This document shows positions 18,628-26,042 of a DNA stretch of 64,000 nucleotides, in pieces. The notes under the pieces were generated by a model that did no database searches, was not told where the DNA came from, and worked only from the letters and a program-made list of their open reading frames with translations. The DNA is from Psychrosphaera sp. F3M07. Lineage in GTDB: Bacteria; Pseudomonadota; Gammaproteobacteria; Enterobacterales; Alteromonadaceae. Each line of letters starts with the position of its first letter. Position 1 is the first letter of the stretch. The stretch is from NCBI RefSeq assembly GCF_018860345.1, contig NZ_JAHKPJ010000021.1:305173-369172 (forward strand), read 5' to 3'. The position numbers were made by a program, and so were the translations under genes.

Positions 18628-20238
18628 TTATTGCATTCGTTGTTGTACTTTATAAGAATGCCAAACCGCCGGAATAATGATAATGACAGCGATAAATGCT
18701 AAAAACCATTGATGGCTTTGATCAACAAAAGCCAAATTGATGATCTCGGCAGCTTCTTTGGTATTTGTTAGATTAGCATGAGCTATGGGGCCTATTGCCG
18801 CATCGTTAGCGATAGAAAAGCCATTACTTAATGCGCTTTCCCAACCAAGTGCAGAAAAAGCTCCATATGCTTTATAGGCAATTGCAGAGGCACCCATACC
18901 GACTAAACCTATGCCAACCGTACCAATGCCAATTAAACCAATACCAATAGAGCCTACAGTGACAATACCAAAAGAGACAATTCCAACACTAATTGGAGCA
19001 ACAGCTAAACCGCCCCACGCAAAGAGCAAGCCATAAGCTTTACTGCCGCCGGCTACCCATGCGTAAGCCGGTTTATAGTTATCTTCAGGGGTACCAAATT
19101 GAAAATGAAATAAGGGAGCGCCAAACAATTTAATCTTGCTTTTATACTCACGTAATGAGGAGTCTTTTTGATCTGATTGACGATGAAATGCGCCTGGATT
19201 CAAAATCCTTTCTTGCATCCTCACTAATATTATTTGCTTAAACATGCGATAAAATAAATAAAAGTTACTCAAAATAAATGCAAGGACAATCAATTGTGAA
19301 GCCAAGGAATAGAGATATATATTATCAGTACTTAAAAGAGCAAAACGTTTTAATACAATATTCGCTATTACATAAACAATCACAGAAATGAAAAAAGCAG
19401 AAACATATAAAATAACTTGTTTTTTTTCTCGAGTAGTACGGGATTGTGATAAAGCCGCTTTCACTCCAAAGTAAGAACTGACAACACCGGAAAATGACGC
19501 AAGCACAACTAAAATTGAAGATATCTTAAACATCGATCCCCCTTTAGCCGCACTTGTACCTAACAACGCAGCTTTTGCCGGTGGCGATAATAAACTGATT
19601 GCAGATATAACACTGGCGGTGAAATCAACTCCAGGTTTACTTTTGGATAAGGTGTCTTCTACAAACGATATCATAGCTCGTTTGAGTAATTTACGTCCCC
19701 TTGAAAGTCGCTGCTTAGTTGTATCTAAAGACAAATCTAATTCAGTTGCAACTCGCTCAACCGATTGTTGTTCTCGGTAGAATAATATTAATGGCTCCCG
19801 ATAAGTATCGTCCATTTGATCTAACGTTTTCCAAAGTAAGTTCTGTTCTTGTTCACGAATGGCTAAATCATCCATTGGCTGGAAATGGTTTTCTTCAACA
19901 TTATGCTCTTCAAATTCACTGGCATTTTTTATAGGTTGGGTGTTTTCTTTGCGACGATAACGACTCACTTTAAATCTGAGAATACCGCAAAGCCAAGATT
20001 TCAACTTTGCAGGTTCTTTTAAACTATCGAGACTTTTCCAAGCTTCTATAAATGTTTCTTGGGCAATATCTTCACTGTGCTTAACATCACCGACCGAAGA
20101 GTAGGCTAAGGAGCACAATAAGTTTTGATATCGAGAAACGATTTGACAAAACGCATCTCTATCTCCGCCTAATGAAGAAATAACCAAGTTCACATCATTC
20201 ATCTCAGTGAAGGATTTTTTACGCCTAAATATGCTCAT
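18628..20238 (-). CDS. ECF sigma factor fused to a membrane domain
   Basis: A 536-residue protein, nearly three times the length of a typical ECF sigma factor. Region sigma-2 spans about residues 22-95 (HSEDIAQETFIEAW, SWLCGILRF) and sigma-4 about 133-190 (YREPLILFYREQQSVERVATEL, then TTKQRLSRGRKLL). After a linker come hydrophobic segments at about 238-258, 275-297 and 306-333. A glycine-rich hydrophobic stretch at 403-460 has repeats of the form G-I-G-x-(V/I/L)-G, and a last transmembrane segment is at about 507-526. The membrane part may act as a built-in anti-sigma or sensor module, which is inference. Upstream on the minus strand is one of three copies of a bipartite motif that fits an ECF promoter, suggesting autoregulation. 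It converges with the LysR gene. Confidence 0.85.
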   Translation of the reverse strand: MSIFRRKKSFTEMNDVNLVISSLGGDRDAFCQIVSRYQNLLCSLAYSSVGDVKHSEDIAQETFIEAWKSLDSLKEPAKLKSWLCGILRFKVSRYRRKENTQPIKNASEFEEHNVEENHFQPMDDLAIREQEQNLLWKTLDQMDDTYREPLILFYREQQSVERVATELDLSLDTTKQRLSRGRKLLKRAMISFVEDTLSKSKPGVDFTASVISAISLLSPPAKAALLGTSAAKGGSMFKISSILVVLASFSGVVSSYFGVKAALSQSRTTREKKQVILYVSAFFISVIVYVIANIVLKRFALLSTDNIYLYSLASQLIVLAFILSNFYLFYRMFKQIILVRMQERILNPGAFHRQSDQKDSSLREYKSKIKLFGAPLFHFQFGTPEDNYKPAYAWVAGGSKAYGLLFAWGGLAVAPISVGIVSFGIVTVGSIGIGLIGIGTVGIGLVGMGASAIAYKAYGAFSALGWESALSNGFSIANDAAIGPIAHANLTNTKEAAEIINLAFVDQSHQWFLAFIAVIIIIPAVWHSYKVQQRMQ

Positions 20239-20266: not shown

Positions 20267-20297
20267 TAAGTGCCACGTATATTTAAAAGGTGACAAA
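20267..20297 (-). promoter_or_regulatory. Putative ECF-type promoter of the sigma factor gene
   Basis: On the minus strand: TTTGTCACC, 14 nt, GGCACTTA. The downstream element ends 28 nt before the sigma factor ATG. Two further copies with a 15-nt gap lie at 20336-20367 and 20605-20636 pointing the other way. Conserved boxes and near-constant spacing are what a -35/-10 pair recognised by one ECF sigma would look like. Confidence 0.6.
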
Positions 20298-20335
20298 ATT
20301 ATTAATAAAAATCACATAAAGTAAAATACGCCATC

Positions 20336-20367
20336 TTTGTCACCTTTATAAATCAATATGGCACTTA
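20336..20367 (+). promoter_or_regulatory. Putative ECF-type promoter, copy 2
   Basis: TTTGTCACC (20336-20344), 15 nt, GGCACTTA (20360-20367). It lies 37 nt before the GTG of a 51-codon ORF encoding a small membrane protein. Same boxes as at 20267-20297 and 20605-20636. Confidence 0.6.
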
Positions 20368-20404
20368 ACGACATCATATTAACGTATTTATATAGAGATC
20401 ATGG

Positions 20405-20560
20405 GTGAAACAAATAAACATAAGAAAGTTCAAATTGAGTAGTGTCTTTGCCATGACTACATTTTTGTTTTTATTTGGTTATTTAATATCAAATGAAATC
20501 TCTAAGATATTAGATAACGTTGATATGTTTTTTATGCTGTTACTCCTTGCATTTAATTGA
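20405..20560 (+). CDS. Small putative membrane protein, 51 aa
   Basis: A GTG-started ORF of 51 codons ending in TGA. A basic N-terminus (KQINIRKFK) is followed by two hydrophobic stretches (VFAMTTFLFLFGYLIS and MFFMLLLLAF). It has no recognised family and only a weak ribosome binding site (AGAG). What supports it is position: a copy of the putative ECF promoter motif ends 37 nt upstream, matching the spacing at the other two sites. A role as a small partner or regulator of the membrane-fused sigma factor is speculation. Confidence 0.35.
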   Translation: MKQINIRKFKLSSVFAMTTFLFLFGYLISNEISKILDNVDMFFMLLLLAFN

Positions 20561-20604
20561 ATTGTTATTGATTCAACTTGAGTGATAAAAATAAAAATTA
20601 TTTT

Positions 20605-20636
20605 TTTGTCACCTAACTTATCGGTAAGGGCACTTA
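20605..20636 (+). promoter_or_regulatory. Putative ECF-type promoter, copy 3
   Basis: TTTGTCACC (20605-20613), 15 nt, GGCACTTA (20629-20636), ending 45 nt before the ATG of the CIA30-like gene. The nucleotides between the boxes differ from the other copies, so conservation is confined to the two boxes. Confidence 0.6.
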
Positions 20637-20681: not shown

Positions 20682-21272
20682 ATGAAAATATCAATATTAA
20701 ACCGAGTAAAACTTTTATGTATGACAAGCTTACTAGCGTGCTCTGCTTACACATATGCTAATAAAATGGCGCCAATCGTTGACGACTTTAGTCACCCAAA
20801 TAACAATAGTTTAGGCATTAAACGACAATTTTTAGACGACAAAGTCGCAGGTGGGAACTCACAAGCAACGATAAAAGTAATTGATGGCAAGTTACATATC
20901 TCGGGTGAAATTGAGCCGCCTAGAGGTCAACCTGGCTGGGCGAGTTCTGTATTATTACTTAATCCTGAAGGTTTACCGCAAGATGTAAGTAAGTTTTCTG
21001 GGATTAGATTATTAATAAAATTACGCAGCGGTAACATTTCAATTTCTGCCAATAGTACAGACATAAGTAATTTTGATTACCACTCTGCCATGTTAATGGT
21101 GCAGGCAGACGATAAATTTCATGAAATAAAAATACCGTTTGATTCAATGAAGCGAACTTGGTCTGAACAAACGAAGTTAAATACGACAACGATTAATAGC
21201 CTTAGTATTGTTTCATTTGGCATGCAAAAAACACCTTTTGAATATCAACTGGACGAAGTTGGCTTTTATTAA
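20682..21272 (+). CDS. Exported CIA30-like (galactose-binding-like) protein
   Basis: A 196-residue protein with a signal peptide (cleavage near AYTYANK). The mature part begins VDDFS and carries D-D-K-V-A-G-G-N-S, then a strand G-W-A-S-S-V-L-L-L, a series resembling the CIA30 / NADH:ubiquinone oxidoreductase intermediate-associated protein 30 domain, a jelly-roll carbohydrate-binding-like fold. It ends in YQLDEVGFY, as do many family members. The exact substrate is not known. It is preceded by the third ECF-type motif and followed 74 nt later by an acyltransferase gene, so it is probably part of the sigma factor's regulon. An envelope-stress or surface-glycan role is inference. Confidence 0.65.
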   Translation: MKISILNRVKLLCMTSLLACSAYTYANKMAPIVDDFSHPNNNSLGIKRQFLDDKVAGGNSQATIKVIDGKLHISGEIEPPRGQPGWASSVLLLNPEGLPQDVSKFSGIRLLIKLRSGNISISANSTDISNFDYHSAMLMVQADDKFHEIKIPFDSMKRTWSEQTKLNTTTINSLSIVSFGMQKTPFEYQLDEVGFY

Positions 21273-21346: not shown

Positions 21347-22564
21347 ATGACAAGCCAAATTCAAACTAATCAACGACTTTACTACTTAGATGGTGTACGA
21401 GCCTTTGCCTTAATTTTAGGCGTATTTTTTCATGCTAGTTTATCATTTATGCCAATGTTTATTGGTTGGGCTGTGATGGATATTTCGACGAGTGAGGTGG
21501 TCTCAATTTTTGTCTTGATCAGTCATTCGTTTCGTATGGAGTTGTTTTTCCTAATTGCCGGTTATTTTAGCCACCTTAAATTTCATCAACAAAGTTTGTC
21601 TACCTTCTTAAAATCGAGATTTGTAAGAATATTAATTCCCTTTGTATTAGGTTGGTTTTTACTAAGACCATTATTAGTTTCTGGCTGGATATTAGGTGGA
21701 GAAAGTATGCGAGGAGAAGCAAATATAATTAATGGACTTATTGCTGGATTTGATAGCTTATCTGAATTACCAAAGGGGCTTCTGATTGGAACACATTTAT
21801 GGTTTTTATATTATTTGTTGTTTATTTCTATTAGCTTAATTTTATTACGAGTAGTCATCGGCCAGCATCAACCTACTTATCATTGGCTCAAAGTGGTCTT
21901 AGACCGCGGCGTTAGCTGGGTGAGTAATGCTAGAACAGGGATACTTTGGGTATCGGTTCCCACATCACTTTGTCTTTGGTTTATGAACAGTTGGGGAATG
22001 GAAACACCCGATAAATCTTTGATACCTAATATACCCGTTACCTTAATATACGCTGGGTTTTTCTTTTTTGGTTGGTTGTTACATAGACACGATAATTTGA
22101 TTGGGCTTTTCTCAAAGATCACACCGAGTAAATTAATTTTCTTTCTTGTATCGACGTTGTCATGCGTAATTTTGGCTGGTTTTGAGATGAAATATGGACA
22201 TGTTAATTATCAGTATATAAAAGCTGGGTTCTTATTCAGTTACGCTGTGATGATGTGGACTTTAATCGCTTTATCAATAGGTTTTGCTAATAAGCTCATT
22301 AAAGGCAGTAATAAAGTGGTTCGATATTTAGCAGATGCTTCATACTGGCTTTATCTAATTCATTTACCGATTGTGATCTGGTTACAAATTGCGTTTGCCG
22401 AGTTACCACTGCATTGGAGTTTAAAACTAGTCACGGTCAGTGGTATGACAATTCTATTATCAATTCTCCTTTATGATATTTTCGTCCGTTCTACATTGAT
22501 TGGTGCTGTATTAAATGGAAGTAGAAAAACGAGAGTGATATTCAATAAACATAAAAACCAGTAG
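21347..22564 (+). CDS. Acyltransferase 3 family membrane protein (OpgC/MdoC-like)
   Basis: About 405 residues with some ten hydrophobic segments. The N-terminal YYLDGVRAFALILGVFFHASLSF contains the R/H signature of acyltransferase family 3 (the conserved His follows the first membrane segment), and a second conserved block RMELFFLIAGYFSH follows. OpgC/MdoC members transfer succinyl or similar groups to periplasmic glucans, while other members acetylate sugars. I chose ATG at 21347, with GAGA upstream, over a TTG 12 nt earlier. It lies just downstream of the CIA30-like gene on the same strand. Substrate uncertain. Confidence 0.8.
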   Translation: MTSQIQTNQRLYYLDGVRAFALILGVFFHASLSFMPMFIGWAVMDISTSEVVSIFVLISHSFRMELFFLIAGYFSHLKFHQQSLSTFLKSRFVRILIPFVLGWFLLRPLLVSGWILGGESMRGEANIINGLIAGFDSLSELPKGLLIGTHLWFLYYLLFISISLILLRVVIGQHQPTYHWLKVVLDRGVSWVSNARTGILWVSVPTSLCLWFMNSWGMETPDKSLIPNIPVTLIYAGFFFFGWLLHRHDNLIGLFSKITPSKLIFFLVSTLSCVILAGFEMKYGHVNYQYIKAGFLFSYAVMMWTLIALSIGFANKLIKGSNKVVRYLADASYWLYLIHLPIVIWLQIAFAELPLHWSLKLVTVSGMTILLSILLYDIFVRSTLIGAVLNGSRKTRVIFNKHKNQ

Positions 22565-22758: not shown

Positions 22759-23622
22759 TTGAATAGCGTATTGAAACAAATTTCTGTATTTACCTTAAGC
22801 ATATTGGTTATTTTATTGTTTACGAATAGCGCATTCGGACAAAATAACAACAAACTATCAGACACGGAAAATGGCGGTTTTTTAGAAATAAATACCGGTA
22901 TATTGGCACTCAATAGTCGGTATATTGATGCCCCAGAAAATGCTGGAGTAATCGCAGACCTTCGTTTTAGCTATTATTGGCGTGGTTTCTTTTTAGAAAA
23001 TCGAGGGCATCAAGGAATAGGCTTTCCTGGGGTCGGTTATAACTTTTACAATGAAGATACTTGGATGTTAGATATATTTATCACGGAAACCCATCCCTCT
23101 ATTTTATGGGATAATGAAATAGACATTGAAAATGGCGTATTAAATGAACAAGATGGTTTGATAGGTATTAGACCAAGAGAATCGGACGATAGGATTGCGC
23201 TGAGGGCAACTCGTTTTATTGACGATACGACAGCGCTGCGGTTTTTAATTGCGCCTATATCAGATACTAACGGCATTGCAGAGGTAAGCCCTTATCTAGC
23301 GGTTTGGTATGGCAAAACATGGCAATATCAAAACATCAACTTTCACAGTATTTACAGTGCACAATATTATAATACCAGCACCTTACAATATTATTATGGG
23401 GTTACGGACGAAGATGTATCAGAAAAATTCCAACCCTACAAAGCACATAGTGGCGTTTCTTTAAGTGCCGAATTTGGAATGACGTATCCATTATCGGCGG
23501 ATTGGTTATTTGAAAGTTCTGTTAAGCTAACTCGATTACCAGATAATATTCATAACAGTCCTTTGGTTTCAGGCCGTTTAGAATCTCAAGCTCAAATATC
23601 ATTAACTTATGTTATTTTTTAA
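22759..23622 (+). CDS. MipA/OmpV family outer membrane protein
   Basis: A 287-residue protein with a signal peptide (cleavage near SAFGQ). Features of the MipA/OmpV barrel are visible: an early ALNSRYI, then LRFSYYWRGFFLENRG, VGYNFYNED, and a final strand AQISLTYVIF with terminal Phe. MipA-type proteins are outer membrane beta barrels linked to murein enzymes or to stress and peptide uptake. The only credible in-frame start is TTG at 22759. It leads an operon with a DUF3019 protein (overlapping or 1 nt spaced) and a two-component pair, a grouping I know from other Alteromonadales. Confidence 0.82.
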   Translation: MNSVLKQISVFTLSILVILLFTNSAFGQNNNKLSDTENGGFLEINTGILALNSRYIDAPENAGVIADLRFSYYWRGFFLENRGHQGIGFPGVGYNFYNEDTWMLDIFITETHPSILWDNEIDIENGVLNEQDGLIGIRPRESDDRIALRATRFIDDTTALRFLIAPISDTNGIAEVSPYLAVWYGKTWQYQNINFHSIYSAQYYNTSTLQYYYGVTDEDVSEKFQPYKAHSGVSLSAEFGMTYPLSADWLFESSVKLTRLPDNIHNSPLVSGRLESQAQISLTYVIF

Positions 23623-24043
23623 AATGATCACTAGCTTTCACTCCTTTGGCTTAATACGACGGATTTTGTTTGTATTATCGACTTTGTGCTGTGTTAACAG
23701 TTATGCTGCTGAGCAACAAACAACAGAAGACATCTTTTTTAAATTAAAACCGCATAAATGTGTTTCATTACATGAAGGCCAACAGTGTTTTACCAAGGTA
23801 AAAATAAACTGGCAAACTAATATCAAAAGTGATTACTGCCTTTATAGTTCACAACAACGGTCTGCGCTTTATTGTTGGAAAAACACACAACAAGGTAATA
23901 TTGAGCACGAGTTAAATACGAATGCTGATGTGCAATTTGTCCTTAAACAATCTCCTAATATTGTTATATCCGAGTCGATACTTAAGGTGTCATGGGTATA
24001 TAAAAAGAAACAAAAATCTCGTTTATCATGGCGGTTATTTTAA
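23609..24043 (+). CDS. DUF3019-like exported protein
   Basis: A 144-residue protein with a signal-peptide-like N-terminus ending near NSYAAEQ. The start at 23609 overlaps the MipA gene by 14 nt; ATG at 23624 just after the MipA stop gives a more usual signal peptide and is equally possible. The mature part has paired cysteines in C-V-S-L-H-E-G-Q-Q-C, then W-Q-T...D-Y-C-L-Y and L-Y-C-W, the cysteine pattern of DUF3019. It is followed directly by the response regulator ATG. Probably a periplasmic partner of the two-component system, but no function is established. Confidence 0.7.
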   Translation: MLFFKMITSFHSFGLIRRILFVLSTLCCVNSYAAEQQTTEDIFFKLKPHKCVSLHEGQQCFTKVKINWQTNIKSDYCLYSSQQRSALYCWKNTQQGNIEHELNTNADVQFVLKQSPNIVISESILKVSWVYKKKQKSRLSWRLF

Positions 24044-24760
24044 ATGAACAATCAAAAAGTGAATATTTTACTCGTTGAAGATGATAAATCTTTATCTGAC
24101 TGGATTTGTGATTATTTATCCAATAAAGGTTTTAATGTGACTCAGTGTTACCGTGGTGACGATGCGGTTGATTTAATTTTAAATACCAAACCTGATGTCG
24201 TCATATTAGACGGAATGTTACCGGGATTGGATGGTTTTGAAGTGTGTAAGACCGTTCGCCAAGAATACAATGGTAGTATTTTAATGTTAACGGCGAGGGA
24301 TGAAGAAATAGATGAAGTTCTTGGGTTAGAACTTGGCGCTGATGAATATATTTTAAAGCCGGTACGAGCGAGAGCCTTATACACAAGGATAAACCGGTGT
24401 TTATCTCGCAAAGATGAAACGACAAATAACGAGGATATTCCTGCAAACGCCAATCATCTAACGTTTAATAGTTTAAGTATCGATCCTACCTCGCAAAAAG
24501 TGTTATTAAACAACCAAGAGATAAAACTCACTTCTAAAGAGTTCGAAGTCATGTGGATCATAGCGAATAACGCAGGCAATATTATCTCGAGAGATTGGCT
24601 TATTAGTCAGGTTAGGGGGTTAGAGTATGATGGATTGGACAGAACTATAGATATACATATTTCTAAGTTACGTAAAAAACTTGGCGATGAATCGAAAGAT
24701 CCTAAAAAAATTAAAACCATATGGGGTAAGGGGTACTTATTTGTTCCAGATGCTTGGTAA
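24044..24760 (+). CDS. OmpR/PhoB-family response regulator
   Basis: A 238-residue protein with an N-terminal receiver (acidic pair Asp13/Asp14 region, phospho-acceptor Asp56 in VVILDGMLP, Thr83, Lys105 in ILKPV) and a C-terminal winged helix DNA-binding domain (LTSKEFEVMWIIA ... LDRTIDIHISKLRKKLG ... WGKGYLF). The ATG directly follows the DUF3019 stop, and the histidine kinase gene overlaps its 3' end, so the four genes 22759-26042 are one operon. Confidence 0.93.
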   Translation: MNNQKVNILLVEDDKSLSDWICDYLSNKGFNVTQCYRGDDAVDLILNTKPDVVILDGMLPGLDGFEVCKTVRQEYNGSILMLTARDEEIDEVLGLELGADEYILKPVRARALYTRINRCLSRKDETTNNEDIPANANHLTFNSLSIDPTSQKVLLNNQEIKLTSKEFEVMWIIANNAGNIISRDWLISQVRGLEYDGLDRTIDIHISKLRKKLGDESKDPKKIKTIWGKGYLFVPDAW

Positions 24761-26042
24761 ATCTATGCGGTTGTTAACCTTATCCTTAATAACCGCAGTG
24801 TTAATTGCAACTATCGGCCTTGGCTGGTTATTGGATAGTTTGTTTTATAATTTTTCAGAAAATTCACAAACAAACAATCACAGCATTCCAACATTGGAAG
24901 ATTTTGGGCGTGACTTATCAAGTGCTTTAAATAAATTAGAACAACCTCAATTGATGATTAAAAATTGGCCGGTAGCGGGCAATGTTATACTTGAATATAT
25001 CGATAATAGTGACATTCAGCTACCTGACACATTAATGAAACAAGCCGTTGAAGGACAACATTTATTACTGACAGATAAAGACCTCGTTAATCTCTATTAT
25101 TACTTACCTAATCACGATGCTTGGGTCATTGTTCAATCTCAACGCATTGCTACTGATACCAATAATGCCAGCATAAAACTGATCCTAACTTTAGTTTTTT
25201 ATAGCCTGCTTATTCTTTTTATATGGATGTGGACTTACCCATTAGTGTCTCGGCTTATTAACTTACGTAATACGGCTCAGTTGTTTGGTAAAGGTGAGTT
25301 TGAACAACGGATTGACGTGGGCGCGGTGTCCTATGTTAAAGACCTAGAATTAGAATTTAACCAAATGGCTCAACGAATCGTTAATCTAGTCAACGACGTT
25401 AAATTAATCGGCAATGCAGTTTCACATGATATGCGAACGCCCTTAGCCAGGATGCGATTTGGTATCGATACTATTGCAGAAGAAGACGATCCCATTCAGC
25501 AAAAGCGATATTTACAGAGGCTTGGCAAAGACGTCGACGAAATGACCAAGTTAGTAGAGTTACTATTAGAATACTCTCGTCTTGATCAAGCTATGGTGAG
25601 TTTAGATAGAAAACCAGTTGAATTGTCCTCGTTGCTAAAAGACTGTATTGCTTATAAACAAACTGAAGATAAACAGATGTTACTTAATGCCCCTGACGAG
25701 CACGTTAGCATCCTAGGCGATAAAAAATATCTGAGCATCTTAGTTAACAATTTATTGCAAAACGCCTTAAATTACGGAAAAACAAGCGTTCAAATTAATG
25801 TCTTCATTGAAAAGGGAAAGGTATGCCTGAGTATTTCAGATGATGGACCTGGCTTTGAAGGTAACCCACAAGATATGCTAAAGCCTTTTGTGCGAGGTAA
25901 AGAAGCAAATGATGTCATTAAAGGGTACGGAATGGGTTTGGCTATCGTCAAAAGAATTGTTGAATGGCATCAAGGCGAATTAAAGATAAGTCGATGTGAC
26001 CAATTATTAGGGGCTAAAGTAACAGTAAAATTACCTAGGTGA
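24750..26042 (+). CDS. Sensor histidine kinase
   Basis: About 430 residues from ATG 24750, which overlaps the response regulator by 11 nt; ATG at 24765 is an alternative. Two transmembrane segments (SLITAVLIATIGLGWLL and LILTLVFYSLLILFIWMW) enclose a periplasmic sensor of about 110 residues. A HAMP region, the HisKA box VSHDMRTPLARMRFG (phospho-His near residue 226) and an HATPase_c domain (NLLQNALNYG, DDGPGFEG, GYGMGLAIVKRI) follow. It is the partner of the preceding regulator. The signal may be envelope related, given MipA and DUF3019 in the same operon. Confidence 0.93.
   Translation: MLGKSMRLLTLSLITAVLIATIGLGWLLDSLFYNFSENSQTNNHSIPTLEDFGRDLSSALNKLEQPQLMIKNWPVAGNVILEYIDNSDIQLPDTLMKQAVEGQHLLLTDKDLVNLYYYLPNHDAWVIVQSQRIATDTNNASIKLILTLVFYSLLILFIWMWTYPLVSRLINLRNTAQLFGKGEFEQRIDVGAVSYVKDLELEFNQMAQRIVNLVNDVKLIGNAVSHDMRTPLARMRFGIDTIAEEDDPIQQKRYLQRLGKDVDEMTKLVELLLEYSRLDQAMVSLDRKPVELSSLLKDCIAYKQTEDKQMLLNAPDEHVSILGDKKYLSILVNNLLQNALNYGKTSVQINVFIEKGKVCLSISDDGPGFEGNPQDMLKPFVRGKEANDVIKGYGMGLAIVKRIVEWHQGELKISRCDQLLGAKVTVKLPR

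Follow-up and report, generated by a model that had tools for sequence, protein, structure and literature searches.

Three copies of one bipartite motif, TTTGTCACC followed after 14 or 15 nt by GGCACTTA, lie beside the gene of a 536-aa ECF sigma factor in Psychrosphaera sp. F3M07 and are very probably core promoters read by RNA polymerase with that sigma factor. The window, i.e. the whole stretch of DNA that was analysed (64,000 nt), contains no further exact copy, and 100 dinucleotide shuffles of it contain none. The genome scan proposed in the first-pass annotation was run over the 3.87 Mb genome with spacers of 13-17 nt and returned the same three copies only. Their places, spacers and distances to the following start codons (Table 1) agree with those given by that annotation. 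Its central claim, that these are the promoters of the sigma factor encoded here, is supported by the position of the motif at orthologous loci and by its co-occurrence with the sigma gene.

The core promoter would consist of a -35 element TGTCACC, usually followed by TTT, and a -10 element GGCACTTA, the two boxes being spaced 14 or 15 nt apart. From such sites the sigma factor would transcribe its own gene and the divergent CIA30-acyltransferase operon and, elsewhere in the genome, very likely a serine hydrolase gene. The motif, its position, its co-occurrence with the sigma gene and its loss together with that gene were observed computationally; direct recognition of the boxes by the sigma factor is what we infer from them.

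Table 1. Positions in the window of the motif copies and the genes around them
Feature	Position	Strand	Remarks
ECF sigma factor, 536 aa	18628..20238	-	Pfam Sigma70_r2 and Sigma70_r4_2
Copy 1, probable sigma gene promoter	20267..20297	-	-35 TTTGTCACC, spacer 14, -10 GGCACTTA; 28 nt before ATG
Copy 2, probable divergent promoter copy	20336..20367	+	Spacer 15; 37 nt before the start of the 51-codon ORF
51-codon ORF with a hydrophobic stretch	20405..20560	+	GTG start
Copy 3, probable promoter of the CIA30-like gene and acyltransferase	20605..20636	+	Spacer 15; 45 nt before ATG
CIA30-domain protein (PF08547)	20682..21272	+	Pfam; likely signal peptide, judged by eye
Membrane acyltransferase (PF01757)	21350..22564	+	MdoC/OpgC-like, well below the cut-off of that family

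Sites upstream of sigma orthologues and their distribution

The survey covered 395 genomes of the family, in which sigma orthologues match over most or all of their length at 51-66% identity. A full-length or nearly full-length sigma gene is present in 32 of these genomes, belonging to 16 genera. Matches outside the 32 were left uncounted, most of them being paralogue-like by length and identity, as were short ECF proteins in two genomes (G060, G080) and a 73-residue fragment in a third (G372). Two loci (L137, L139) repeat others (L004, L032) and were not counted twice.

The first-pass annotation had suggested looking upstream of orthologous sigma genes, where absence of the motif would speak against promoters. 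With up to 3 mismatches the motif is found 25-45 nt upstream of the ATG in 28 of the 30 orthologue loci. The remaining two (L033 in G299 and L041 in G186) have degenerate sites with 4 mismatches, and two sigma genomes outside the 30 loci (G390, G348) have sigma-directed sites with 2 mismatches. Restricting the search to the last 150 nt and to at most 2 mismatches leaves a sigma-directed copy in 27/30 loci and a divergent copy in 18/30; 300 dinucleotide shuffles gave none.

In the best site of each locus no variation is seen in TGTC, in the C two bases on, or in the A and the second C of the -10 GGCACTTA, with the caveat that the 30 sites were picked as best pattern matches, so that selection accounts for part of this agreement in the boxes. 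The distance to the ATG and a run of T after the -35 box are free of this selection: T occupies the three positions following TTTGTCACC in 30, 26 and 30 of the 30 sites. The sequence between the boxes had been described as not conserved, which holds among the three copies in the window and fails across the orthologues, where this T run recurs. The spacer is 15 nt in 16 sites and 14 nt in 14.

The gap between the motif and the assumed ATG is only 25-28 nt in 15 of the 30 orthologues. A stretch this short leaves no room for both a leader and another promoter downstream of the motif, so the motif itself is likely the core promoter. A simple Shine-Dalgarno pattern was found in only 19/30 sigma leaders, and some start codons may therefore be misplaced. 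The same short gap bears on the reading in which the motif is the operator of some other regulator and the promoters are ordinary sigma-70 ones. The two boxes do resemble each other as a weak direct repeat (half-sites G-T/G-CAC-C/T-T, about 21 nt apart), and OmpR/PhoB-type regulators bind direct repeats. However, 25-28 nt before the sigma ATG cannot readily hold a sigma-70 -10 element and a leader, no other recurring regulator gene was noticed when the ORF lists of 12 extended loci were read, and the motif goes with the sigma gene across genomes. An operator is thus very improbable.

This co-occurrence is strong. The exact pattern TTGTCACC-N14-15-GGYACTTA has 36 matches in 24 of the 395 genomes, of which 33 fall in 21 of the 32 sigma genomes and three in three of the 363 others, each of these inside an ORF (Fisher p 6e-24, which is indicative only, the genomes being related). 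The reversed pattern has 5 matches in all. The exact form is absent from 11 of the 32 sigma genomes, and the genome with the sigma fragment (G372, counted among the 363) has no exact match. Almost all the matches in sigma genomes (30/33) are at the sigma gene, at CIA30 or, in G348, between the sigma gene and a gene for a serine hydrolase that lies some 0.45 kb downstream. One of the remaining three precedes the gene of a 48-residue TM-like peptide (L058).

In two different genera, on contigs other than that of the sigma gene, the exact motif stands 194 nt and 58 nt before homologous 2TM genes of 47% identity (L061 1501-2010, L078 1-279), which are candidate accessory members of the regulon.

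A search of the order detected the sigma factor in five genomes of three other families. The motif precedes the sigma gene in all five (1, 1, 1, 1 and 3 mismatches), and a divergent copy is present in all four that have CIA30 in the flank (0, 0, 0 and 1 mismatch). Within the family, the presence of the motif across the 395 genomes tracks the sigma gene, which strongly supports the promoter reading.

Probable target genes and the short ORF

A CIA30 orthologue was detected in 28 of the 395 genomes, 27 of which also have the sigma gene, and in 26 of these 27 the motif (up to 2 mismatches) precedes CIA30. In G299 the CIA30 site is degenerate, as is the sigma site of the same genome. The acyltransferase gene follows CIA30 in all those extended loci that have CIA30 (8/12). 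Two genomes depart from the common arrangement. G273 has its CIA30-acyltransferase operon about 12.7 kb away from the sigma gene, with the motif retained. In G262 the operon is present with no sigma match at 1e-20 and no motif at 3 mismatches; a sigma-less operon without the motif indicates that the motif goes with the sigma factor.

The surroundings of the sigma gene vary. In two genomes of one genus that have no CIA30 match (loci L131, L133) the sigma gene stands beside GH97 and GH43 genes, with GH2 in addition in L131, and a CMD-family gene also adjoins it in L133. In the window, just past the acyltransferase (22759-26042), are genes for a MipA-like outer membrane protein, a DUF3019 protein, a response regulator and a histidine kinase. 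This set was not noticed at three extended sigma loci.

Outside the window, a fourth site with 1 mismatch is intergenic (G000:C2:63173-63204) and precedes a PF00144 serine hydrolase gene. This gene is a credible fourth target, very likely activated by the sigma factor, because its orthologue is found at the sigma or CIA30 cluster in three relatives (G299, G195, G348). The regulon looks like the sigma gene, CIA30-acyltransferase and the serine hydrolase gene. An envelope location of the CIA30 protein and the serine hydrolase was judged by eye from their N-termini, and the acyltransferase family is a membrane one.

Ten mismatch hits were inspected in this genome: the C2 site with 1 mismatch, hits on C12 and C24, and seven with 3 mismatches. 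The C12 and C24 hits (1-2 mismatches) were rejected as targets, as each falls in one of two copies of an inter-ORF repeat, and a C28 hit (2 mismatches) was rejected as lying inside an ORF. A mismatch scan alone therefore gives false positives. Among the seven hits with 3 mismatches, C29:120139 belongs to the operon of a paralogous sigma factor and the others had no further support. A looser pattern has 7 matches in the genome, 4 of which are the known sites, and its reverse has 1.

The repeat copies (L009 4827-5094, L010 4533-4802) are 76% identical over 272 nt and MITE-like, with inverted ends (29 nt, 93%), and each contains a near-match to the motif; one copy lies just before a gene resembling an RpiR/HexR-type regulator. 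Near the sigma locus of G105, a copy with 2 mismatches is found 59 nt before a 781-residue amidohydrolase ORF (L130 10249-10278), which is a possible extra target.

The 51-codon ORF had been proposed as a target in its own right. The motif copy upstream of it stands as described, while the ORF as a separate gene target is unsupported. No significant homologue was found in the loci of the relatives compared, and the ORF sits where relatives have the start of CIA30. Copy 2 likewise lies approximately at the site of the single CIA30 promoter in most relatives. The ORF could be a truncated copy of the beginning of the CIA30 gene that arose by duplication, for which the chances are about even, or perhaps a genuine small membrane peptide.

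A related reading is that only two of the copies have separate targets and that copy 2 is a relic, or a second start of the CIA30 operon, left by a partial tandem duplication. In most relatives a single divergent copy is present, immediately upstream of CIA30, and the CIA30 profile scores the ORF at 8.0 bits, against a maximum of 3.8 in 999 shuffles and of 5.2 over the 88 unrelated of 100 signal-peptide controls. However, at the DNA level the stretches downstream of copies 2 and 3 are no more alike than shuffles (334/500 reach their similarity), so this DNA test for duplication was negative, and the motif of copy 2 is intact and may still drive transcription. This reading has about an even chance of being correct. 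Its acceptance alters the content of the regulon and leaves the reading of the motif as core promoters as it is.

The sigma factor, its paralogue and known ECF systems

Sigma regions 2 and 4 lie within residues 34-185 of the 536-aa protein (Pfam Sigma70_r2, 6e-14; Sigma70_r4_2, 7e-9), with no Pfam hit to region 3, and are followed by a hydrophobic extension of about 345 residues. The protein scores above the cut-off of the NCBIfam sigma70-ECF superfamily, and among the solved ECF chains closest to it in sequence are SigW, sigma-H and sigma-E. By domain content it is an ECF (group IV) sigma factor.

The extension has about five hydrophobic segments, as judged from hydropathy and conservation over the 30 orthologues, and is probably a multi-TM membrane domain. 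It matches no Pfam family at E 0.001. Residues 196-536 of the window protein contain no cysteine, and each of the 30 orthologues has 0-3 cysteines beyond residue 200. Single-sequence structure prediction gave a mean pLDDT of 41, for the whole protein and for residues 360-500.

Within a hydrophobic stretch of the extension (residues 419-449, window 18892-18984), seven glycines follow each other at exact five-residue steps. Among 11 aligned relatives six of them are invariant and one nearly so. The corresponding repeat in a close relative weakly resembles GLTT repeats, below the cut-off. Either TM helices or a pentad solenoid of hydrophobic character could underlie the pattern.

None of the genes neighbouring the sigma gene in the window was recognised as a separate anti-sigma gene. 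Since the extension is hydrophobic and probably multi-pass, control by this membrane domain is the most likely mode, as far as hydropathy can indicate. The domain would keep the sigma factor inactive until an envelope signal leads it to free or activate the sigma factor. IutY and the ECF52 group (PMC8999054) offer the analogy for such inhibition and release, which has roughly an even chance of being correct. Release would then set off positive feedback, if the sigma gene is positively autoregulated as its upstream site suggests, and a burst of envelope-modifying proteins.

A paralogous fused ECF sigma factor of 376 aa, with a hydrophobic extension of its own, is encoded in the same genome (L013 1040-3171, G000:C29). 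A sister motif, TTTGTCACA-N-ACTTA, precedes its alpha/beta-hydrolase-sigma operon. At 2 mismatches this motif is present at 13 of 21 orthologous paralogue loci (shuffles: mean 0.29, maximum 2) and absent from 8. It is also present in genomes without the 536-aa sigma factor, and at the paralogue loci with no hydrolase match (L080, L095, L098) it stands before the sigma gene itself.

Both sigma factors thus occur in this genome, the paralogue with a closely similar motif upstream of its operon, and the promoters described above could in principle be read by a different sigma factor such as the paralogue, with the co-occurrence with the 536-aa sigma being indirect. However, paralogue-like sigma factors are found in many genomes without the 536-aa sigma, while exact TGTCACC-type sites outside ORFs are found only in genomes that have it. 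The base after TGTCAC also separates the two sets of sites: it is C in 24, T in 5 and G in 1 of the 30 sites of the 536-aa sigma, and A in 13 of 13 same-strand paralogue sites found by a pattern with this base left free. This makes a different sigma factor most improbable and argues that the two use separate variants of a common promoter architecture. Some cross-talk between them is possible.

RpoE and SigW are canonical autoregulated ECF sigma factors. With these the 536-aa protein has regions 2 and 4, a bipartite -35/-10 promoter and probable positive autoregulation in common, but no separate anti-sigma gene was recognised here. Its -35 box is also not GAAC-like, in contrast to the Shewanella RpoE sites given in PMC4336711.

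ECF41 has the promoter TGTCACA-n16-CGTC (PMC3426412) and shows several likenesses to the sigma factor described here: the -35 core TGTCAC, similar spacing, a regulatory C-terminal extension, and a very small regulon of neighbours with the promoter before the target and often before the sigma gene. However, the -10 element of ECF41 is CGTC and that found here is GGCACTTA, with C mostly following TGTCAC (24/30). The ECF41 extension is soluble and SnoaL-like (PMC8999054), whereas the extension here is hydrophobic with glycine repeats, and no SnoaL match was found in the 536-aa protein by Pfam at E 0.001. The ECF41 target in PMC3426412 is a COE gene (carboxymuconolactone decarboxylase / oxidoreductase / epimerase), and the probable targets here are CIA30, the acyltransferase and the serine hydrolase. 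One of 11 extended sigma loci (G165) has a CMD-family gene (PF02627), which is convergent to the sigma gene and has no motif at 2 mismatches. An assignment to ECF41 was rejected, as the -10 element, the extension and the recurrent targets differ.

In IutY (ECF243), ECF48, ECF52 and ECF53 an ECF sigma factor carries a fused membrane anti-sigma part, and their likeness to the protein described here is a sigma factor and a membrane regulatory part in one chain; PMC8999054 gives proteolytic release as shown for IutY and proposed for ECF48/52/53. The latter three are described there as having one or two TM helices together with a zinc-finger domain, whereas about five hydrophobic segments were found here. 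The ECF48/52/53 type was rejected, with no cysteine after residue 195 and no zinc-finger anti-sigma Pfam hit. IutY belongs to an iron-siderophore cell-surface signalling system (PMC8999054), and this type was also rejected, with no Pfam match to the extension and no receptor gene among the recurrent targets.

The principle of the autoregulated ECF promoter is well known. In the literature searched, which did not extend to the 2021 ECF re-classification, no description of the promoter or regulon of the 536-aa sigma factor was recognised, and neither the membrane-fused sigma nor its target sequence was found. A bolder reading, which we consider rather unlikely, is that the protein represents an unclassified ECF lineage with sensor, inhibitor and sigma factor in one multi-pass protein. 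Such a lineage would have its own code, TGTCACCTTT-N-GGCACTTA, next to TGTCACA-N-ACTTA for the paralogue, and would switch an envelope module that is self-contained and patchy in its distribution (CIA30, OpgC-like acyltransferase, serine hydrolase), perhaps acting while membrane-tethered and not after proteolysis.

With very probable core promoters as the reading of the motif, the paralogous pair, with sites distinguished mainly by the -10 element and a single -35 base, would be useful for studying how ECF specificity diverges. A membrane-fused ECF sigma factor would gain a defined promoter and a small regulon, with natural variants in which the site is lost, relocated or degenerate, so that specificity becomes directly testable. 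CIA30-domain proteins would be linked, through a common regulator, with an acyltransferase and a serine hydrolase.
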